Positions 5,489 to 64,000 of a DNA stretch of 64,000 nucleotides are shown in pieces; the first letter of the stretch is position 1, and the number at the start of each line of letters is the position of its first letter. Both the position numbers and the translations under genes were made by a program. Source of the DNA: Sedimentimonas flavescens (GTDB taxonomy: Bacteria; Pseudomonadota; Alphaproteobacteria; Rhodobacterales; Rhodobacteraceae). The notes below the pieces were generated by a model. That model saw only the letters and a list, made by a program, of their open reading frames with translations. It made no database searches and was not told the DNA's origin. The DNA is taken from NCBI RefSeq assembly GCF_019264375.1, contig NZ_JAHVAI010000006.1, positions 1 to 64,000 on the forward strand, read 5' to 3'.

Positions 5489-6531
5489 GCAAGACTCCAG
5501 AGCCAGGTATCGTCCTCCCCAAGGGTGCGGCGGACCTGCCCGAGGTGCAAGAGGTGATTGAGATGCGCCACCGCCTCGACCAGCGCGAGGCCGTATTCCG
5601 GCTCGCCGATGGGGCGCTTGAACAGCGCCGGGAAACAGGCCGAGGCCGGGCGCGGGCCCTCGGCCAGAAGCGCGCGCAGTCGGCTCAGAGCGCCCTCGTG
5701 GTTCTCGATCATCTGGCGCAGGCGAAGCGGCAGGCCGGTGAAGGGTAGCTTGTGGCCGGGCAGGACAAGGTGACGCGCCTCGGCCAGCGGCTGGAAGCGA
5801 CGGCAGCTTTCCATCCAGTCGGCCACCGGATCGGCCATCGGCTCGGTCGCGTAAACGCCCAGATTGGCCGAGATCGAGGGCAGGAGCTGATCGCCGCCGA
5901 TCACCAGATCGTCGTCAAGCGACCAGAGCGTGGCGTGATCGGGCGCATGCCCCTCGCCGATCCGCACGATCCACTCGCGCCCGCCGACATGCAGCCGGTC
6001 GCCCTCTTTGATGCGGTGGAAGCCCAGCGGCAGCGGGTGGACGCAATCGGCAAAGTTGAAGGGGCGCTCAAGCGCGCGGCGCGCGTGCAGATCGGGGTCC
6101 ATGCCCGCGCGTTTCCAATAGGTCAGGGTCTCGGCCACCGGCACGGGCTGCGCATCGAGCGTCAGCATCCGCGCAAAAAGCCACGAGGTGCGGGTGGTCC
6201 AAAGCTCCGCCCCCCGCGACTGGAGCCACCCCGCAAGGCCGATATGGTCGGGGTGGTAATGCGTCACCAGCACCCGTGTCACCGGCTTGCCCGCCATCGG
6301 TCCGTCAATCAGGGCCTGCAATGCCGCGCGGCATTTCGGCGTGTCGATACCCGGATCGACCAGCGTCCAGCCATCGCCATCATCCAGCGCGAAGCAGTTG
6401 ACGTGATCAAGCGCCATCGGCAACGGCAAACGCGCCCAGAGAACTCCGGGCGCGACTTCGATCGCTTCGCCAAAGGCTGGCGGTTCGGCCCACGGGTAAC
6501 GCAGACCGCCCCGCTCGGCTGCGCCGCTCAT
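5485..6531 (-). CDS. MBL-fold metallo-hydrolase
   Basis: This 348-residue protein has the metallo-beta-lactamase metal motif HYHPDH at residues 91-96, a later His in GEGHAPDH, an Asp in IGGDQLLP and a His in LPGHKLPF, so both zinc sites look intact. The C-terminal ~100 residues form a helical extension ending in a winged-helix-like segment, as in LACTB2-like hydrolases. A thioesterase or glyoxalase-II-like hydrolysis is plausible given its position directly after an acyl-CoA dehydrogenase (ATGA overlap), but the substrate is unknown. The start at 6531 is fixed by that overlap; upstream extension would run into the neighbour. Confidence 0.88.
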   Translation of the reverse strand: MSGAAERGGLRYPWAEPPAFGEAIEVAPGVLWARLPLPMALDHVNCFALDDGDGWTLVDPGIDTPKCRAALQALIDGPMAGKPVTRVLVTHYHPDHIGLAGWLQSRGAELWTTRTSWLFARMLTLDAQPVPVAETLTYWKRAGMDPDLHARRALERPFNFADCVHPLPLGFHRIKEGDRLHVGGREWIVRIGEGHAPDHATLWSLDDDLVIGGDQLLPSISANLGVYATEPMADPVADWMESCRRFQPLAEARHLVLPGHKLPFTGLPLRLRQMIENHEGALSRLRALLAEGPRPASACFPALFKRPIGEPEYGLALVEAVAHLNHLLHLGQVRRTLGEDDTWLWSLA

Positions 6532-8219
6532 GCGCTCAGCTCTTCCACGCTCAGCGCATAAAGCCCTTCGGCACCTTCCTTGGCCTCGGCGAGCGCGGCG
6601 GCATATTGTGGCAGCAGGCGGCGGATATAGACCGCAGCCAGCTTGGCGCGGCCCGAGGCCCCACCCTCGGCCAGCGCGGCGCGCAGATGGTAATGCGCGC
6701 CCAGAACACGGGCGAAGGCACGCAGGTAGGGCACGGCACCGGCAAAACGGTCCTGCGTACCCTGACCCAGCATCCATTCGGTATGTTCGCGCAGCGACTC
6801 GGTCGCCTGCCAGACGTCTTCAGCGAGATCCGGCAGTGCCTCGCGCGCGGCCTTGGCCTCGTCCTCGATCTCTTGCAGCAGGCGGAAGGCGGCGCGGCCC
6901 TCGTCCATCATCTTGCGGCCGACAAGGTCCATGGCCTGAATTCCGTTGGTGCCCTCGTAGATCGCGGTGACGCGGACATCGCGGTAGAATTGCGCGGCGC
7001 CGGTTTCCTCGATGAAGCCCATGCCGCCATGCACCTGCACGCCCTGCTCGGCCACCCACATGCCGACATCGGTGCCATAGGCCTTGGCGATCGGGGTCAG
7101 CAGCGCGGCGCGCGCCTCCCAGTCCGCCTCGCCGGTGGCGCGGGACATATCTAGCGCGACCGCGCAGGCCATGGCGATGGTGCGGGCGGCGAAAACCTCG
7201 GCCTTCATCTCGGCCAGCATCCGACGCACGTCGGCGTGCTGGATGATCGGGGCGAACTGCACCCGCTCCTGCGCATACTCCAGCGCCTTCTGATAAGCGG
7301 CCTCGGCCACGCCGATGCCCTGCACGCCCACGTTCAGGCGCGCGTTGTTCATCATGGTGAACATGGCGGCCATGCCCTTGCCTGGCTCGCCGACCATCCA
7401 GCCGGTTGCGCCCTCAAAGCTCATCACACACGTGGGCGAGCCATGCAGGCCCATCTTGTGCTCCAGCGACACGACCTTGAGGCTGTTCGCGACGCCCGGA
7501 TTGCCATTCGCATCGGGGATGTATTTCGGCACCATGAAAAGGCTGATGCCCTTGGTACCCGGTGCCGCATCGGGAAGACGCGCCAGCACCAGGTGGCACA
7601 CGTTCGCCGTCACGTCCGAATCGCCCCAGGAAATGAAGATCTTCTGCCCGGTCACGGCATAGGTGCCATCGCCCATCGGCTCTGCCTTCGAGCGCACGGC
7701 CCCCACGTCCGAGCCCGCCTGCGGCTCGGTCAGGTTCATCGTGCCCGACCACTCGCCCGAGATCAGCTTGGGCAGGTAGAGCTCCTTGATCTCGTCCGAG
7801 GCGTGATGCTCCAGCGCCTCGATCTGGCCCTGCGTGAGCAGCGGGTTAAGCTGCAGCGCCAGATTCGCGCCCGACATCATGTCGTTGACGGCAACCGTCA
7901 TGGTCATCGGCAGGCCCATGCCACCGAATTCCTGCGGCCCCGAGATCGCAACCCAGCCACCCTCGGCGATCTGGCCATAGGCCTCCTTGAAACCGGGCGA
8001 GGAGCGCACGACACCGTTTTCCAGCCGGGCCGGGTGCAGATCGCCATTGCGCAACAGCGGCGCCATGACCTCATCGCACAGGCGCCCCGCCTCGGTCAGG
8101 ATCGCCTCGACCGTCTCGCCTGTCGCCTCTGCGAACAGTTCGGTCTCAGCCACGGGGGCAAGCGGCACCACCTTGTCGAGAATGAACCGCAGTTCGGAAA
8201 CGGGCGAACGGTAAGGCAT
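6528..8219 (-). CDS. Acyl-CoA dehydrogenase, DmdC-like long form
   Basis: This FAD enzyme dehydrogenates an acyl-CoA at C2-C3 and hands electrons to ETF. The 563 residues are longer than classical ~380-residue members and include a C-terminal helical extension, as in DmdC (3-methylmercaptopropionyl-CoA dehydrogenase) and related FadE forms. Visible elements are MNLTEPQAGSDVGA (substrate/FAD region near residue 160), FISWGDSD, QVHGGMGFIEE, and the probable catalytic Glu in AIYEGTNGIQ near residue 420. In roseobacters several paralogues exist and not all act on DMSP intermediates, so the exact acyl-CoA is uncertain. It leads a coupled operon with the MBL hydrolase and DUF6173 genes. Confidence 0.9.
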   Translation of the reverse strand: MPYRSPVSELRFILDKVVPLAPVAETELFAEATGETVEAILTEAGRLCDEVMAPLLRNGDLHPARLENGVVRSSPGFKEAYGQIAEGGWVAISGPQEFGGMGLPMTMTVAVNDMMSGANLALQLNPLLTQGQIEALEHHASDEIKELYLPKLISGEWSGTMNLTEPQAGSDVGAVRSKAEPMGDGTYAVTGQKIFISWGDSDVTANVCHLVLARLPDAAPGTKGISLFMVPKYIPDANGNPGVANSLKVVSLEHKMGLHGSPTCVMSFEGATGWMVGEPGKGMAAMFTMMNNARLNVGVQGIGVAEAAYQKALEYAQERVQFAPIIQHADVRRMLAEMKAEVFAARTIAMACAVALDMSRATGEADWEARAALLTPIAKAYGTDVGMWVAEQGVQVHGGMGFIEETGAAQFYRDVRVTAIYEGTNGIQAMDLVGRKMMDEGRAAFRLLQEIEDEAKAAREALPDLAEDVWQATESLREHTEWMLGQGTQDRFAGAVPYLRAFARVLGAHYHLRAALAEGGASGRAKLAAVYIRRLLPQYAAALAEAKEGAEGLYALSVEELSA

Positions 8220-8342
8220 TTGCTTCTCCCTTGCGCGCGGCTTGGCAAAGCGGACGGGCGCGCGTATGTCCTGAAATCACGAGGGCCAAGTTACCGCAAG
8301 GTCAGCCCCCTTCAACCACGAACGCAGCGTCACGAAAGCACG

Positions 8343-9305
8343 ATGGACAAGATAACCCGACGTCTCGCCCCCGATGCCGAGGGCCTCGCCCACGCGGCGG
8401 CTCTTCTGGCGGCGGGCGAGTTGGTCGCCTTCCCGACCGAGACGGTCTACGGGCTTGGCGGCGATGCGCGCTCGGGCACGGCGGTGGCGGGGATCTATGC
8501 GGCCAAGGGGCGGCCCAGGTTCAATCCGCTGATCGTGCATCTGCCCTCGCTGGACGCGGCCGAGAAGATCGCCGTGTTCGACGATCGCGCGCGTGCGCTG
8601 GCGGCGCGGTTCTGGCCCGGTCCGCTGACCATGGTGCTGCCACTGCGCCCCGAGGCAGGGATTTCCGATCTGGTGACGGCGGGGCTGGAGACCGTGGCGA
8701 TCCGTCTGCCCGCCCATCCGGTGGCGCGCGCGCTGCTTGAGGCCTTCGGCGGGCCGCTGGCAGCGCCCTCGGCCAACCCCTCGGGCAAGGTCAGCCCGAC
8801 CACGGCCGATCACGTGATCGAGGGGCTGAGCGGCCGCATCGCGGGTGTCGTCGATGGCGGCGCCTGCGCGGTGGGCCTGGAATCGACGATCCTCTCGCTC
8901 GATCCGCCGATGCTGCTACGCCCCGGCGGCGTGCCGGTCGAAGCGCTGGAGGCAGCCCTTGGCCAACCTCTGCCGACGGGCGGCGACGCGGCCAAGCCCA
9001 ATGCGCCGGGGCAACTTACCTCGCATTACGCGCCGGGCGCGCCGGTGCGGCTGATGGCTGAGGCGGCGCAACCCGGCGAAGTCTGGATCGGCTTTGGCCC
9101 GGATTGCGCGGGGGCGGATATCAATCTGTCATCCAAGGGCGATCTGGTCGAGGCGGCCTCGGGTCTGTTTGCGGCGCTGCGCGCAGCCGATGCGCTGGCG
9201 CAGGCGCGCGGTGCGCGCTCCATTGCCGTTGCGCCGATCCCCGAACGTGATCTTGGCCGCGCCATCAATGACCGGCTGCGTCGAGCGGCAGCGCCGCGCC
9301 CCTGA
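8343..9305 (+). CDS. sua5: L-threonylcarbamoyladenylate synthase, Sua5 type
   Basis: The enzyme makes threonylcarbamoyl-AMP from threonine, bicarbonate and ATP, the first step of the t6A modification at position 37 of ANN-decoding tRNAs. The YrdC domain (about residues 10-200) shows FPTETVYGLGGDA, the KGRPRFNPL segment and SANPSGKVSPT. A linker containing PGQLTSHYAP leads to a C-terminal Sua5 domain (about 225-320), so this is the long Sua5 form rather than short TsaC. It is divergent from the acyl-CoA dehydrogenase and convergent with yqgE. Confidence 0.95.
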   Translation: MDKITRRLAPDAEGLAHAAALLAAGELVAFPTETVYGLGGDARSGTAVAGIYAAKGRPRFNPLIVHLPSLDAAEKIAVFDDRARALAARFWPGPLTMVLPLRPEAGISDLVTAGLETVAIRLPAHPVARALLEAFGGPLAAPSANPSGKVSPTTADHVIEGLSGRIAGVVDGGACAVGLESTILSLDPPMLLRPGGVPVEALEAALGQPLPTGGDAAKPNAPGQLTSHYAPGAPVRLMAEAAQPGEVWIGFGPDCAGADINLSSKGDLVEAASGLFAALRAADALAQARGARSIAVAPIPERDLGRAINDRLRRAAAPRP

Positions 9306-9866
9306 TCAGGCGTGCCCTGCGGCCGCCGAAAGTGTGCGCGGGTCGATCCCCATATTGGCCAGCGCGCGGGTCCATTTCGTTGCATGATCGGGGCCAAGGG
9401 CAATATCGGCATCGCCCTCGGTGATCAGCCAGCCATTGTCGAGGATCTCGCTTTCCAGCTGCCCCGGCCCCCAGCCCGCATAGCCAAGCGCCAGCAGCGC
9501 GCGGTCCGGGCCGACGCCCGCAGCGATATCCTCAAGAATATCGCGCGTGGCACTCATCGACAGATCGCTGCTGACCTTCATCGCCTCGCTACGGCCCTGC
9601 CATTCGGGTGAATGCAGCACAAAGCCACGTCCGGTCTCGACCGGGCCGCCGAACAGGATCGGCGCGCGCTCAGGCCGGTCGGAGGCGGTGACGGGAATGC
9701 CCAACTGCTCCAGCAGGTCAGTCAGCGCGGGCTTGGGCAGCGGCTTGTTGACGATCAACCCCATCGCGCCTTCGGGTGTGTGGGCGCAAAGCGCCACCAC
9801 GGAATGCTCGAACCGCGGATCGCCCATGCCGGGCATCGCGATCAGAAGTTTGCCGGTCAGATCCAT
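9306..9866 (-). CDS. yqgE: YqgE/AlgH family protein
   Basis: The 186-residue protein begins with LTGKLLIAMPGMGDPRFEHSVV, shortened here in description, followed by GAMGLIVNKPL and later ILFGGPVETGRGFVLH; these are the defining segments of the UPF0301/AlgH family. Members are widespread and small, with no agreed enzymatic activity. The ATG at 9866 has an adjacent GGGAGG ribosome binding site. It abuts the stop of sua5. Confidence 0.93.
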   Translation of the reverse strand: MDLTGKLLIAMPGMGDPRFEHSVVALCAHTPEGAMGLIVNKPLPKPALTDLLEQLGIPVTASDRPERAPILFGGPVETGRGFVLHSPEWQGRSEAMKVSSDLSMSATRDILEDIAAGVGPDRALLALGYAGWGPGQLESEILDNGWLITEGDADIALGPDHATKWTRALANMGIDPRTLSAAAGHA

Positions 9867-10011
9867 CGCAACCTCCCGTGGTCATGCTTTCTATAAACCT
9901 GTGCCTGCATGGCCCGCAGATCAACCCCAGAACTGTTGCGGGCTTGCACCTCGCGAAAAGCTGTCGTGTTTGTGACTTTGCCTAAGGCATCGGCGGAAGT
10001 ATGCCCAATGC

Positions 10012-10800
10012 ATGACCAGACTCGCTGCCCTGCCCCTGTGCCTGATGATCGCTGCGCCCGCTTTGGCGCAGGAAGCCCCCCTTCCGCCCGGAATGGAGGT
10101 GATCGAGGTCATTGATGGCTGGCAGACCCCCTCGGGCGAGCGGATCGCTGCACTACGCATCGCGCTCGATCAGGGGTGGAAGACCTATTGGCGCAGCCCC
10201 GGCGATGCCGGCATCCCGCCCAGCTTCAACTTCACCGATTCGCGCAATGTCGCGGCTGTCGAGATGCACTGGCCCGCGCCCGAGGTATTCGACCAGAACG
10301 GCCTGCGCTCGGTCGGGTATCACGATGAACTGATCCTGCCGCTCGCGATCACGCCTGCCGACCCCACGCAGCCCGTGGCGCTTTCGGCAGACCTTGAGCT
10401 TGGCATCTGCCACGATGTCTGCGTGCCGGTCTCGCTTGAAGTCTCGAAGGATCTGCAAGGCCCCGGCGCCCCCAACGAGACGATCCGCGCCGCGATGACC
10501 GCGCAGCCCCGCCCGATCGAGGGTGGCGCGCGCTGCACGGTCGAGCCGATCGCCGACGGGATGCGCGTGACCGCGTTGATCGATCTGCCCGCTGATCAGG
10601 CGCGCGACGCCTTCCTTGAGCTCCGCTCGACCCCGATGTGGGTGTCGGATGCGGTCGCGCGGCGCGACGGCGATACGTTGATCGCCATGGCCGAGTTTGT
10701 GCCCGAGAACGCCAAGCCCTTCGCGCTGGATCGGAACGATCTGCGCATCACGGTGCTGTCGGAAAACGGCGCGCTGGAAATCAACGGCTGCCCGAACTGA
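10012..10800 (+). CDS. Periplasmic DsbD-alpha-domain protein
   Basis: A Sec signal peptide (residues 1-20, ending ALAQ) precedes a DsbD N-terminal-like domain containing GWKTYWRSPGDAG and the cysteine pair in GICHDVCVP (Cys133, Cys137). In DsbD the alpha domain receives electrons from the membrane domain and reduces periplasmic partners. Here the 262-residue protein has no membrane helices or thioredoxin domain, so it must obtain electrons from another protein or have another thiol role. This stand-alone form is common in alphaproteobacteria. It is followed, convergently, by the RND permease gene. Confidence 0.85.
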   Translation: MTRLAALPLCLMIAAPALAQEAPLPPGMEVIEVIDGWQTPSGERIAALRIALDQGWKTYWRSPGDAGIPPSFNFTDSRNVAAVEMHWPAPEVFDQNGLRSVGYHDELILPLAITPADPTQPVALSADLELGICHDVCVPVSLEVSKDLQGPGAPNETIRAAMTAQPRPIEGGARCTVEPIADGMRVTALIDLPADQARDAFLELRSTPMWVSDAVARRDGDTLIAMAEFVPENAKPFALDRNDLRITVLSENGALEINGCPN

Positions 10801-10803
10801 TCC

Positions 10804-13800
10804 CTAGCCCGCCCTGCGAAAGCGCCCCCTCAGCAGGCGCGGCGCGATCAGCCCGGTCGCGATGACCACCGCCGCGCTCAGCCCGACAAAGGCCGCATAG
10901 GCCGACCCCACGCCATCGCCCGAGTAAAGCGCACGCCCCAGCGTCAGCGCGAAGGCCAGCGCCACCGCGCCACTCGCACCCCACAGCACCCCGCGCAGCC
11001 GCGGCACGCGCGCGCCATGCCGCATGGCACGGACCTGACGCGAGACATCCAGTTGCACCGCCAGGGTCGCCGGCACGACGATCAGCACGATTACCATGCC
11101 GAAGCCAAGCCCATAGACCAGTGTGATCACCGTCGATTTCAGGAACAGCGCCTGGCTCGACTGCTCATAGAGCAGCGGCGCAAGGCCAAGGACCGTCGTC
11201 AGCGTGGTCAGCATCACCGGCCGCAGCCGGTCGGCCACCGCATCGACGATGGCGGGCACGAGGCCGCGCTTGACCGCATATTCATCGACCGTCGAGATCA
11301 GCACGATCGCATCGTTGATGATGATCCCCGACATGCCGATCGCGCCCACGACGGCGAACATCGACATCGGCAGATCCCAGACATAATGGCCCCAGATCGC
11401 GCCCACGAGGCCGAAGGGGATGACCGACATCACCACCACGGGCCGCGACCAGCTGGCGAAAATCCATGCCAACACAATGTAGATGCCAATCAGACACATC
11501 ACGAGGCCAAGGATCGCATCGGCCATGAAGTCGCGCTCTTCCTCGGCCGAACCCGAGAGTTGCCAGACCACGCCACGCTCTTCGGCGATGCGGGGCAGGA
11601 TCTCCTCTTCGAGCTGGCGGGTGATTTCATTGGCGCGCTCTGGGTCGTCCTCGGAGATGTCCCCGGTCACGGCAACCAGCCGCAAGCCGTTCTCGCGCCG
11701 GATGGTCGAGAAGCCGGTTTCGGAGCGGATCGTCACGATATCCGACAGCGGCACCCACCCACCCGAGGGGGTGCGCATCTGCATCCGCTCGACGAAATCG
11801 GCGGCCTGTTCCTCCTCGGGCATCTCCACGCGGATCGTGGCCGAGCGCACCCCGTCGGGGTAGCTCGCCGCCTCGGTGCCGTTGAGCCGCGCGCGCAGCT
11901 CGCGCGAGAGCGCGTCGATGTCAAAGCCAAGCGCCACGCCCTGCGGCGTAAGCGAAACGATCAGCTCTTCCTTGTCATAGGCGAGGTTATCCTCAAGCGC
12001 AGAGACCTCTGGGAAGGGCGTGAGCGCGACTTTCAGATCCTCGGCAGCGGCCTTCAGCTCGCGGCTTTCCGCCCCGGTGAATTGCACCGAAAGCCCGTCC
12101 GAGGACGGCCCCATCCGGTAGCCGCGGAAGCTGAGCTCCTCAAGCAACGTATGCCGCGCGGTCTCTTCCTGGAGCCGCGCGATGAAATCGGAACTGGAAT
12201 AGGGCCGATAATCGCTGTCGATCAGTTCGACGGAAATCGAACCCAGCAGATCCGTATCCTTGCTGTCGGCCGAGGCCAGCGCCCGCCCCGAAGCACCGCC
12301 GATCTGCGCCAAAGCGTGCTCGACCGGGTTGGTGCCGAACTCAGCCTCGTATTCACGCCCGACCTTTTCCACCCCCGCCTGAAGGTTGCGCATCATCGCG
12401 AGCGTATCGTCGCGCGACGCGCCCGAGAGCATGGCGAAGGATCCGGTCACCGTCGATTGCTCGGGCGGGTTGAAAAAGCGCCACTGCACCTTGCCCGAAA
12501 TCAGGAACGACACCTGCCAGGCCAGAAGCGCGATCGCCGCCGCGATCACCGGATAGCGCGCGCGCAGCACAAAGCGCGTCATTGGCCGCATCAGGCGCAC
12601 CCGCACCCATTCCAACCCCTTGTTCACCTGACGCGAAGGCCAGTCGTACCACTTGCCTTCGGCCGTCTGACTCAGCGCGTGGGCCATGTGATTGGGCAGG
12701 ATCAGGAAGCACTCGATCAGCGACGCCAACAGCACCGCGATGACCGTATAGGGAATATCGAGGATCATCGTCCCCATCTGCCCGCCGATGATGATCAGCC
12801 CGGCGAAGGCGATGATCGTGGTCAGCGTCGAGGCAAAGACCGGCGCGGCCATGCGCCGCGCGCCCTGTTCGGCGGCCAGAACCGGGTGTTCGCCCAGTTC
12901 GCGCGCCCGAAAATCGGCATGTTCGCCCACCACGATGGCGTCATCGACGACGATACCCAATGTCAGGATCAGCGCGAAAAGCGAGATCATGTTGATCGTC
13001 ATGCCCGAGACATACATGACCGCCAGCGCCGCAGCCATCGAGGTGGGAATACCCATCGCCACCCAAAAGGCCGTGCGCGCGTTTAGGAACAAGAAGAGCA
13101 AGAGCAGCACGAGGCCAAGCCCCATCACGCCATTGCCCACCAGCAGCTCAAGCCGCTGCGTGATCGCCTCGGAGCGGGTGCGCATCAGGTCGATCGAGGC
13201 GCCGGCGGGCAGAGTCGGCTCCATCGTCGCGATGACCTTCTCCACCTTGTGCTGCAAGGCGATCGCATCGCCTTGGGCCGAGCGTGAGACGTTGATCGTC
13301 ATGGCGGGCTGGTCGCCGACGTAATAGGCCCGTGCGCGGTTCGCGCCCTCGACCCGGACCAGCGCCACATCACCCACGGTCAGTTGCGAGCCATCCGGGT
13401 TCGAGCGCAGCACCAGCCCCGCGATCTCACGCGCGTCCCGGCGCTCTTCGCCGGTGCGCACACGGGCCGCGCCACCTGCCACATCGCCCGCCGGGCTGGT
13501 GGCGGCCTCGGCCGCGATCAGCGCCACGATCTGCGACAGAGTGACATCGTATTTCATCATCGCCGTGGTCGGCACCTCGACCACGGTCTGCGGCGCGGCT
13601 ATGCCCTGCACTGTGGTGCGCGTCACCCCCTCGGCGTAAAGCCGCACGACCAGCTCATCGGCCAGCCGCCCCAGTTGCTCGGGCGAGAGCGGGCCGGTGA
13701 TGGCGATATCGGTCACCGTGTCACGCCAGACGCCGCGGGTGACCTCGGGTTCTTCGGCGGCCTCGGGCAGATCGCTGGCGGCGGTGATTGCCTGCTCAAC

Positions 13801-62001: not shown

Positions 62002-62574
62002 ATGACCAAAGTTCTGCGGATCGACAGCTCGATCAAAGGCCCCGCCTCGGTGACCCACAAGCTCACCGACTCGATCCTTGCCCGCCTCGGCGGCGAGGTA
62101 ACCGAGCGTGACACCACCACCATTCCGCTGATCGACGGCACCTGGATCGGCGCCGCCTATACCCCGGCAGAGAACCGCACCGCCGCGCAGAAAGCGACGC
62201 TCGCGCTGTCGGACGAGTTGATCGCGGAGATCAAGGCCGCCGACGTGCTGGTGATCGGCATGCCGATCTACAACTTTGGCGTGACCGGCCCGCTCAAGGC
62301 CTGGATCGACCAGATCTGCCGCGTGGGCGAGACCTTCCGCTACACCGAGAACGGCCCGCAGGGCCTTGCCGGCCCAAAGCGCGTGATCGTGGCCTATGCC
62401 TCGGGCGGCGTGCCGCTCGGCTCGGCGGTTGATCTCGCCTCGGCCTATATCAAGCAGGTTCTGGCCTTCATCGGCATCACCGATGTGAGCTTTGTTGCCG
62501 CCGAAGGCGTGGCCGCCGACGAAGCCGCGGCGGTGGCCCGCGCCGAGGCGCAGATCGAAAAGCTCTCGGCCTGA
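62002..62574 (+). CDS. azoR: FMN-dependent NADH-azoreductase AzoR
   Basis: AzoR reduces quinones and azo compounds with NADH through FMN, mostly as a detoxifying quinone reductase. The 190 residues have the flavodoxin-like start VLRIDSSIKGPASVTHKL (phosphate-binding Ser residues), GMPIYNFGVTGPLKAWIDQI and the ASGGVPLGSAVD segment, all typical. A LysR gene is divergent and a strong terminator follows the gene. Confidence 0.94.
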   Translation: MTKVLRIDSSIKGPASVTHKLTDSILARLGGEVTERDTTTIPLIDGTWIGAAYTPAENRTAAQKATLALSDELIAEIKAADVLVIGMPIYNFGVTGPLKAWIDQICRVGETFRYTENGPQGLAGPKRVIVAYASGGVPLGSAVDLASAYIKQVLAFIGITDVSFVAAEGVAADEAAAVARAEAQIEKLSA

Positions 62575-62580
62575 TCTCCC

Positions 62581-62669
62581 CCGCGCCGCGCGTCCCCGCC
62601 ATCCCGTGTTCAGCAGGCGGGGGCGGCGCGGCGCTGCAAAGCCCCTCGGTTGACTCCGGGGGGCTTTTT
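62581..62669 (+). terminator. Long GC stem and intrinsic terminator after azoR
   Basis: Two stems follow the azoR stop. The first pairs CCGCGCCGC and CCCCGCC (62581-62600, with a 4-base bulge) with GGCGGGGGCGGCGCGG (62616-62631). The second pairs AAAGCCCCTCGG (62638-62649) with CCGGGGGGCTTT (62656-62667) around a 6-base loop, one G-T wobble, followed by a T-run to 62669. The second is a classical Rho-independent terminator. Confidence 0.85.
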
Positions 62670-62682
62670 GCTTAAGGAACCC

Positions 62683-62811
62683 CAGATTCCCCGGAGGCAG
62701 ATTCCTCCGGTCCCCGCATGAAGCAGGGATCGCCACCAGTCAGCGCGTTGCGCCCACTGGTGCGCTTGTCGTTTGTTCGCCGGGTTTGCCGGCCACCTGA
62801 AGGAGGTGCCG
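62683..62811 (+). promoter_or_regulatory. Hairpin-rich leader of ffh that covers the ribosome binding site
   Basis: Between the azoR terminator and ffh lie an 8-base direct repeat CAGATTCC (62683 and 62698), a perfect hairpin CCGGAGG-CAGATT-CCTCCGG (62691-62710), a nested stem CACCAGT/ACTGGTG (62734-62740, 62756-62762) that encloses GCGC-GTT-GCGC, and finally GGCCACCT-GAAGG-AGGTGCC (62791-62810), which places the strong AAGGAGGTG site in loop and stem. This suggests control of ffh translation; no known riboswitch was recognised. Confidence 0.45.
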
Positions 62812-64000
62812 ATGTTCGAAAGTCTCTCAGAACGCCTTGGCGGCGTATTCGAGCGCCTGACGAAACAGGGCGCACTTTCGGCCGACGACGTGCGCACCGC
62901 GCTGCGCGAGGTCCGCGTGGCATTGCTTGAGGCCGACGTTTCGCTGCCGGTCGCGCGCGACTTCATCAAGGCGGTCGAGGCCAAGGCCACCGGCGCCGCC
63001 GTTACCAAATCGGTCACCCCCGGCCAGCAGGTCGTCAAGATCGTCCATGACGAGCTGATCGCCATGCTCTCGGGCGACGGCGAGGCCGATGCGCTGAAAA
63101 TCGACAACCCGCCCGCGCCGATCCTGATGGTCGGCCTTCAGGGCTCGGGGAAGACCACCACCACCGCAAAACTCGCCCGCCGCCTGCGCGACCGCAATGG
63201 CAAGCGCGTGCTGATGGCCTCGCTCGACATCTACCGCCCCGCGGCGATGGAGCAGTTGGCGATCCTGGGCCAGCAGATCGGCGTCGACACCCTGCCGATC
63301 GTCAAGGGCGAAAGCGCCGTGCAGATCGCCAAGCGCGCCAAGCAACAGGCGACGCTCGGCGGCTACGACGTCTACATGCTCGACACCGCGGGCCGCCTGC
63401 ATATCGACGAAGTCCTGATGGACGAGGTTCAGGCCGTGCGCGACGCGGTCAACCCGCGCGAGACGCTTCTGGTCGTCGACGGCCTGACCGGTCAGGTCGC
63501 CGTCGAGGTCGCGCAGGAGTTCGAGGACAAGGTCGGCATTTCGGGCGTCGTTCTGACCCGGATGGACGGCGACGGGCGCGGCGGTGCGGCGCTCTCGATG
63601 CGCGCCACCACCGGCAAGCCGATCCGCTTCGTGGGTCTTGGCGAAAAGATGGACGCGCTGGAGACCTTCGAGGCCGAGCGTATCGCGGGCCGCATCCTCG
63701 GCATGGGCGACATCGTCGCCCTGGTCGAGCGCGCGCAGGAAGTGCTGGAGAAGGAACAGGCCGAGCGCATGGCGAAGCGTTTCGCCAAGGGCCTGTTCAA
63801 CATGAACGACATGAAGGGCCAGCTTGAGCAGATGCTCAAGATGGGCGGCATGCAGGGCGTGATGTCGATGATGCCGGGCATGGGCAAGATGGCCAAGGCC
63901 GCCGAGGACGCGGGCTTTGACGACCGCACCATCCGCCGCCAGATCGCGCTAATCAACTCGATGACCAAGCTTGAGCGCGCCAAGCCCGAGATGCTGCAAG
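62812..64000 (+). CDS. ffh: Signal recognition particle protein Ffh, truncated by window end
   Basis: Ffh binds signal sequences and 4.5S RNA and delivers ribosomes to the FtsY receptor. The visible 396 codons contain the N domain (1-85), the GTPase G domain with GLQGSGKTTTTAKLA (G1), DIYRPAAMEQL, DTAGRLHIDE, LTRMDGDGRGGAALS and the beginning of the methionine-rich M domain (MLKMGGMQGVMSMMPGMGKM). The frame is open at base 64000, so the C-terminus lies outside. It has an unusually strong AAGGAGGTG ribosome binding site sequestered in a hairpin. Confidence 0.96.
   Translation, partial: MFESLSERLGGVFERLTKQGALSADDVRTALREVRVALLEADVSLPVARDFIKAVEAKATGAAVTKSVTPGQQVVKIVHDELIAMLSGDGEADALKIDNPPAPILMVGLQGSGKTTTTAKLARRLRDRNGKRVLMASLDIYRPAAMEQLAILGQQIGVDTLPIVKGESAVQIAKRAKQQATLGGYDVYMLDTAGRLHIDEVLMDEVQAVRDAVNPRETLLVVDGLTGQVAVEVAQEFEDKVGISGVVLTRMDGDGRGGAALSMRATTGKPIRFVGLGEKMDALETFEAERIAGRILGMGDIVALVERAQEVLEKEQAERMAKRFAKGLFNMNDMKGQLEQMLKMGGMQGVMSMMPGMGKMAKAAEDAGFDDRTIRRQIALINSMTKLERAKPEMLQ

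Follow-up and report, generated by a model that had tools for sequence, protein, structure and literature searches.

The analyzed window comprises positions 1 to 64,000 of the forward strand of the Sedimentimonas flavescens contig NZ_JAHVAI010000006.1. Close to its end, the region between azoR and ffh holds a promoter, three hairpins (P1 to P3) and a U-rich tail (Table 1). At least three further hairpins between the azoR hairpin and ffh had been proposed in the original prediction, which is borne out by P1, P2 and P3. The first two bases of P2 are common to P1.

Table 1. Features in and around the region between azoR and ffh (positions of the window; rpsP follows beyond its end)
Feature	Position	Strand	Basis
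azoR (name from the original prediction), upstream gene	62002..62574	+	ORF list
Terminator-like hairpin with T run of azoR, enclosing the −35 hexamer of the next promoter	62638..62669	+	Sequence, stem, fold
−35 hexamer TTGACT	62650..62655	+	TTGAC conserved across Rhodobacteraceae loci
Candidate −10 hexamer TAAGGA, spacer 17 nt	62673..62678	+	Sequence; start predicted near 62684
Hairpin P1 (CCGGAGG...CCTCCGG), outside the Rfam model	62691..62710	+	Fold, alignment; RNAalifold consensus without P1
Hairpin P2 (GGUCCCC...GGGAUC)	62709..62731	+	Covariation; class-wide control
Hairpin P3, core of RF01793	62734..62762	+	Rfam match 62719-62770; covariation
C-C mismatch in P3, with adjoining A-C (62742/62754)	62741/62755	+	Sequence
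U-rich tail, conserved (majority of the class-wide alignment CnUUUUnnGUUUGG)	62763..62776	+	T fraction after P3
Shine-Dalgarno sequence AAGGAGG of ffh	62800..62806	+	Inside a weak, unconserved hairpin (62793-62808)
ffh (SRP54), first gene of the operon	62812..64000, running past the window end	+	ORF list
rpsP	65226..65411, same contig, after ffh		Profile PF00886

The whole window was searched against Rfam 15 using cmscan. The only match reaching the gathering score was RF01793 ("ffh"), with 62.8 bits (cut-off 35) over model positions 1-52 of 52. Both traits of this family, a bulged hairpin with two conserved cytosines and a position upstream of ffh, are present in the window. Matches to anti-hemB, Atu_C7 and snoU82P in 62400-63000 were below their own Rfam cut-offs. 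The family is typed as 'Gene; sRNA' in Rfam and spans P3 and part of P2.

The ffh motif was described as one hairpin with a bulge, which precedes ffh and has two cytosines in nearly every example (Meyer et al., 2009; PMC2704228). According to this description, the motif was found in the sequenced Rhodobacterales, Sphingomonadales, Rhizobiales and Pelagibacter, not in Rhodospirillales and Caulobacterales; a role in the regulation of ffh was called possible and no resemblance to SRP RNA was seen. The original prediction had known of no described leader with this layout for ffh, which has to be corrected, since the element is this motif. Corbino (2005; PMC1273637) was rejected as the source of RF01793, as the word ffh is absent from its text. 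The element in the window shares with the published motif hairpin P3, the two conserved bulge cytosines, the position upstream of ffh and the occurrence in Alphaproteobacteria, whereas P1, P2, the promoter and the tail are added here to the single hairpin, which had been assigned to ffh, and rpsP is the gene constantly found with the RNA. The leader does exist as a structured element but belongs to a family already described; what is new is its partner gene. No link between RF01793 and rpsP was found in open-access papers, subscription journals being mostly outside the search.

Transcripts from this place have been described. In S. meliloti, a transcript of 115 nt between dapF and ffh was sequenced (Sm5, identical to SmelC778; PMC2573895, PMC2873474), so that the suggestion that a small RNA originates here is possible. 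An 'ffH leader RNA' is named among the sRNAs of Bartonella bacilliformis (PMC7717549). A table for Mesorhizobium huakuii gives an RF01793 match in the intergenic region IGR_Pb-19 (MH_s5), which by its label is apparently located on a plasmid (PMC5596092).

Promoter, hairpins and tail of the leader

The candidate promoter was compared across 80 Rhodobacteraceae ffh loci, which are the best 80 of 491 matches. TTGAC was identified upstream of P1 in 79 of these best 80 loci, and in 74 of them it precedes the CGGU that closes P1 by 56-62 nt. For the locus without TTGAC (L184), just 40 bases were available upstream of P1. From TTGACT and TAAGGA, the transcript start is predicted in the region of 62684. 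Transcription starting solely downstream of 62790, which would speak against a leader, is unlikely because TTGAC is kept upstream of P1, mostly at a fixed spacing. A sigma-70 consensus scan of the window listed no promoter at TTGACT/TAAGGA.

The azoR terminator had been called clear. A hairpin with a T run is indeed present, but it encloses the −35 hexamer and is absent from the list of the consensus terminator scan of the window. The azoR hairpin is thus not simply upstream of the leader unit. The hexamer of the ffh operon promoter sits in the loop of this hairpin. TTGAC enclosed by a stem of 6 or more pairs, with a T run behind it, was observed in 8 of the best 80 loci (L109, L111, L113, L116, L118, L119, L122 and L125), from which it follows that terminators enclosing a promoter occur repeatedly, in several genera.

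The sequence 62671-62820 folds more stably than its shuffled versions (z −2.12), 6 of 200 shuffles being as good. For 62575-62811, which includes the terminator hairpin, z was −4.38 and none of 200 shuffles was as good. P3 is visible by eye in all of the best 80 of 491 loci. For the covariation analysis, 79 Rhodobacteraceae sequences were aligned using MAFFT (alignment A1), with the window in place of L109 and with L119 omitted, which is identical to L116 as printed. In the cells of P1, P2 and P3, 96.4% were paired, compared to 88.2% for shuffled and 34.7-55.2% for slid sequences. Changes on both sides of a pair were found in 128 cells (shuffled 36.6, slid 3-19). The structured 5′ leader and the compensatory changes expected in aligned relatives are therefore confirmed for the stems, less so for P1.

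Both-sides changes occurred in six of eleven P3 pairs, three of four P2 core pairs and two of six P1 pairs; 88.0% of the P1 cells were paired, and the 5′ strand of P1 is partly shifted in the alignment. P2 and P3 clearly covary. P1 is the weakest-supported part of the leader, since the RNAalifold consensus omits P1 in favor of a longer P2 next to P3. The CGG ending P1 (62708-62710) could pair in P1 or extend P2 (CGGU with AUCG). This extended P2 is paired in 99.6% of the cells in A1, and its four outer pairs never vary in Rhodobacteraceae, which is why covariation cannot settle between P1 and the extended P2. A switch between the two is possible. The direct repeat CAGATTCC reported before is present at 62683 and 62698, but the aligned relatives, inspected by eye, do not have both copies.

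A class-wide alignment of P3 (A2) consists of 100 rows, namely 103 stretches, of which 99 are distinct, plus the window; L006 and L095 were left out as their P3 was missed by the scan. Here, 11 of 12 P3 pairs changed on both sides, with 173 such cells compared to 56.2 for shuffled and 6-27 for slid sequences. A hairpin with a score of at least 5 ending 0-4 nt (mostly 1 nt) 5′ of P3 was found class-wide in 63 of 96 sequences, compared to 22.5% of the shuffled upstream sequences (mononucleotide shuffles).

Both cytosines of the C-C mismatch (C62741 and C62755) are invariant in the 100 rows of A2; outside A2, the first of them is a U in L095, L122 and L158. The pair beside the mismatch was C-G in 23, U-A in 9, G-U in 7, G-C in 4 and A-U in 1 of the 100 rows, whereas 56 rows showed a non-standard combination, by eye mostly A-C. 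Conservation is highest at bases that are paired or belong to the mismatch, and the loop of P3 differs in both length and sequence among the rows of A2.

Downstream of P3, the T fraction was 0.55 at nucleotides 3-12 and 0.25 at nucleotides 15-24. The T content of the first stretch was higher in 136 and lower in 12 of the 157 analyzed sequences. The tail after P3 is thus U-rich class-wide, as would suit an intrinsic terminator or attenuator, but in the window a terminator scan gave 2 sites with 1.0 expected, which is not clearly above chance.

The distance between P3 and the start of ffh ranges between 17 and 231 nt, with a median of 61 nt (175 loci, including one misplaced P3 in L158 and the genome of the window itself as L004). 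A Shine-Dalgarno-like sequence of at least 4 bases was found in all 80 analyzed loci, which are the window's own genome and 79 relatives. Its median unpaired probability was 0.515 (window 0.55), and in 13.75% of the loci it was below 0.3. The original prediction had described the Shine-Dalgarno sequence as trapped in a hairpin; its pairing varies among the 80 loci, and the conserved pairing which a translational switch masking this sequence would need was not found among them. Direct masking is unlikely, since the pairing is unconserved and the distance from P3 to the start codon is so variable.

As the comparison of the sequences shows, the promoter, P2, P3 and the tail are conserved, and base pairs are maintained by compensatory changes; P1 is less supported.

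Linkage of the RNA to rpsP and ffh

The RF01793 model found a match in 106 of 385 alphaproteobacterial genomes. Using a broader, class-wide model built from A2 (R1), the RNA could be identified in 237 of the 385. Ffh is encoded within the examined stretch in 99 of the 106 RF01793 loci. The remaining seven are three contig ends (L069, L088 and L094), with an Ffh-like frame beginning in L069 and L094, and four loci of one family (f49), in which the gene next to the RNA is rpsP.

For the location of rpsP, the profile PF00886 was used. A match is present in 231 of the 237 genomes with the RNA, the six genomes outside this number being G021, G099, G230, G245, G276 and G351. In 230 of the 231, rpsP is found downstream of the RNA, on the same strand of the same contig; in the exception (G172), the RNA is located about 43 nt from the contig end. 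The RNA position was taken from the RF01793 match instead of R1 in 19 genomes. The distance between the RNA match and the S16 match is 1390-5078 nt in 224 genomes, which therefore leaves room for ffh, and 45-308 nt in six. In these six genomes from three families, ffh is absent between the RNA and rpsP (gaps of 45, 50, 50, 58, 82 and 308 nt). As only three families are concerned, the six cases go back to three evolutionary events at most.

Among the 237, no case was seen in which the RNA accompanies ffh while rpsP demonstrably lies at another place. In the rpsP-less loci L138, L139, L141, L153 and L170, the sequence ends at most 2.4 kb from the ffh start. In L145, which contains the RNA and ffh, no rpsP was seen by eye over the 6.2 kb beginning at ffh. 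Several acetyltransferase-like ORFs stand in a row behind ffh in this locus (6509-10975, by eye), and one GNAT gene (PF13302) occupies this place in L109; in some Rhodobacteraceae, acetyltransferase genes seem to accumulate between ffh and rpsP.

The f49 family consists of four alphaproteobacterial genomes of 1.3-1.4 Mb (G049, G174, G270 and G347, with the loci L063, L052, L035 and L040) which are 93-97% complete. All four carry the RNA, and none has a match to TIGR00959 (Ffh), PF00448 (Ffh and FtsY) or RF00169 (4.5S RNA). The genomes G098 and G207, searched alongside, were positive, the 4.5S RNA match of G207 being below the family cut-off. The absence of the 4.5S RNA is the weakest of the three, because RF00169 finds a match in just 11 of 14 control genomes. 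In L063, a divergent dapF-like frame is followed by a TTGACT promoter, the RNA (RF01793 score 38.5 bits, above the cut-off), rpsP, rimM, trmD and rplS, an order determined by eye and for rpsP also by PF00886. The fold of the f49 RNAs is kept with compensated changes, for example an A-U in place of G-C in the inner stem, which L044 and L107 also show. The whole SRP pathway has apparently been lost in this family, and in L063 ffh seems to have been removed from its place between leader RNA and rpsP. A bacterial family in which ffh, ftsY and 4.5S RNA all go undetected is unusual in its own right; no SRP loss of this kind was found in open-access papers.

In the two other families, ffh is located elsewhere in the genome. 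In G089 (L209), the RNA lies 82 nt before rpsP-rimM-trmD-rplS (Pfam). Its match is weak (27.1 bits) but in the right place, and a P2-like hairpin, a TTGACA promoter and the tail were recognized by eye. The ffh gene of G089 is on another contig, and R1 gave no match around it (L210) up to E 5. In G282, the RNA (40.1 bits) is found 308 nt before rpsP, which is followed by the same genes rimM, trmD and rplS (L211); no Ffh is encoded within 12 kb around the RNA, and Ffh is present elsewhere in the genome. In the genome G020, two separate contigs (C4 and C1) carry ffh and rpsP; at E 0.001 no RNA was found, and the sole sub-threshold match (11.4 bits, L213:171-205) lies about 1 kb from rpsP.

No match to TIGR00959 at E 0.001, FtsY included, was obtained for 15 genomes; genomes in which the match does not exceed the level of FtsY are more numerous and not counted here. 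Besides the four f49 genomes, 11 of the 15 are without the RNA (G017, G054, G130, G149, G223, G232, G254, G286, G312, G328 and G341). Three of these 11 have a size of 0.6-0.8 Mb and three are 57-84% complete. G341 is also without rpsP, though the RNA was found in further members of its family.

According to this linkage, the RNA goes with rpsP, not with ffh, which would often stand first in the operon but be dispensable there.

Possible ligand and mode of action

The RNA most likely serves the ribosomal operon and not ffh, because rpsP is downstream in nearly all genomes and the RNA survives in bacteria lacking ffh. With its linkage and covariation, it is a conserved structured RNA at the 5′ end of a ribosomal protein operon. 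On balance, it is probably a cis-acting leader of the alphaproteobacterial (ffh-)rpsP-rimM-trmD-rplS operon, to which a ribosomal protein, most likely bS16, would bind.

The transcript from about 62684 would fold into P1 (or the extended P2), P2 and P3. A ribosomal protein of the operon, preferably bS16 and alternatively bL19, would bind P2-P3 around the C-C mismatch when exceeding the rRNA, and this binding would lower the expression of the whole downstream operon, ffh included. Control may take place at the leader end, by premature termination or RNA processing at P3 and the U-rich tail, rather than by masking of the Shine-Dalgarno sequence, since the distance to ffh is not fixed and the pairing of that sequence is unconserved. 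Termination or processing at this site would also explain the S. meliloti RNA of about 115 nt. A narrower version is put forward tentatively, as possible rather than probable: RF01793 could be the missing autoregulatory element of the trmD operon, with bS16 at the C-C helix, termination after the tail and release of a leader of about 100 nt.

Leaders of other ribosomal proteins (L19, L20, S15, S4 and others) are structured 5′ RNAs of ribosomal protein operons and usually limited to one lineage. The RNA studied here shares their 5′ position; it differs in that its operon mostly begins with the SRP gene ffh. In all known cases, the ligand of such a leader is the product of a regulated gene, and in multi-gene operons of E. 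coli and B. subtilis the ligand gene is mostly not the first one (PMC7247131). A candidate S16 leader of Flavobacteria, likewise a structured RNA upstream of rpsP-rimM with proposed S16 binding (2020; PMC7247131), is similar by its description and belongs to another phylum. For the trmD operon, information on regulation is lacking according to a 2024 review (PMC10931766). Mimicry of the 16S rRNA 3′ end or of 16S 5′-domain helices was considered and dropped, because the matching leader bases vary. The same applies to P1 as an antisense RNA to the 4.5S RNA loop, as the P1 sequence changes in other families (by eye).

The RNA could instead be a trans-acting small RNA sharing the operon promoter, with P3 and the tail as its terminator and ffh and rpsP transcribed by read-through. 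The S. meliloti transcript (PMC2873474), the listing among the B. bacilliformis sRNAs (PMC7717549), the U-rich tail and the sRNA typing in Rfam are consistent with this. However, the RNA follows rpsP through three rearrangements, as expected for a cis-acting element, and no obvious seed is present, since the most conserved bases are paired or mismatched and the P3 loop varies. A trans-acting RNA is therefore considered fairly unlikely.

A variant of the cis-acting leader, in which bL19 (rplS), RimM or TrmD and not bS16 reads the RNA, is rather unlikely. An L19 leader exists in Firmicutes as a precedent for bL19, and rimM, trmD and rplS follow rpsP in all three breaks of linkage (L063, L209 and L211). 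Because these genes stay together there, bS16, bL19, RimM and TrmD are inseparable by linkage. That rpsP stands closest to the RNA where ffh is missing speaks for bS16, as does the candidate S16 leader in Flavobacteria (PMC7247131), neither point being decisive.

The fixed relation of promoter and P1, together with the free distance to the gene, would also suit a general stabilizer of the mRNA 5′ end or a promoter-linked riboswitch for a small molecule, with no ribosomal protein as ligand. A pure stabilizer would need neither the near-invariant C-C mismatch nor the close spacing of P2 and P3, and no metabolic gene partner was seen for a riboswitch, which makes both quite improbable.

Autoregulation, with Ffh or SRP binding the leader and adjusting its own synthesis, is very unlikely: ffh is the next gene in most genomes, and Meyer et al. 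(2009) considered a role in its regulation possible, but the RNA is kept before rpsP in the f49 family, in which no SRP was detected, and in the two families with ffh apart, which also makes the earlier idea of a leader for the SRP protein unlikely. The assumption that the RNA occurs only where ffh is present fails in f49, in which all four genomes have the RNA and none has a match to Ffh, FtsY or 4.5S RNA. Some weight is left to it because the 11 other genomes without ffh are also without the RNA, which taken alone would fit a link to ffh. A GGAA-type loop is a motif of SRP RNA. P3 is without it, and the pair adjoining the C-C mismatch is free to change. R1 gave no match in the 4.5S RNA locus of the same genome (L002) up to E 5 with filters off, for which reason SRP RNA mimicry was rejected. 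With the bacterial SRP RNA (RF00169), the leader is connected by the name of Ffh only.

Since 2009, the RNA has been filed under its usual next gene, whereas the linkage in 231 genomes points to rpsP-rimM-trmD-rplS instead. If the reading as a cis-acting leader of the ribosomal operon is right, it would provide a testable regulator for this operon and serve as a warning against naming leaders after the first gene. The SRP protein would then be under ribosomal feedback in many Alphaproteobacteria, and, if the narrower version with bS16 is true, a ribosome-assembly protein would also determine how much SRP protein is made in most of the class.
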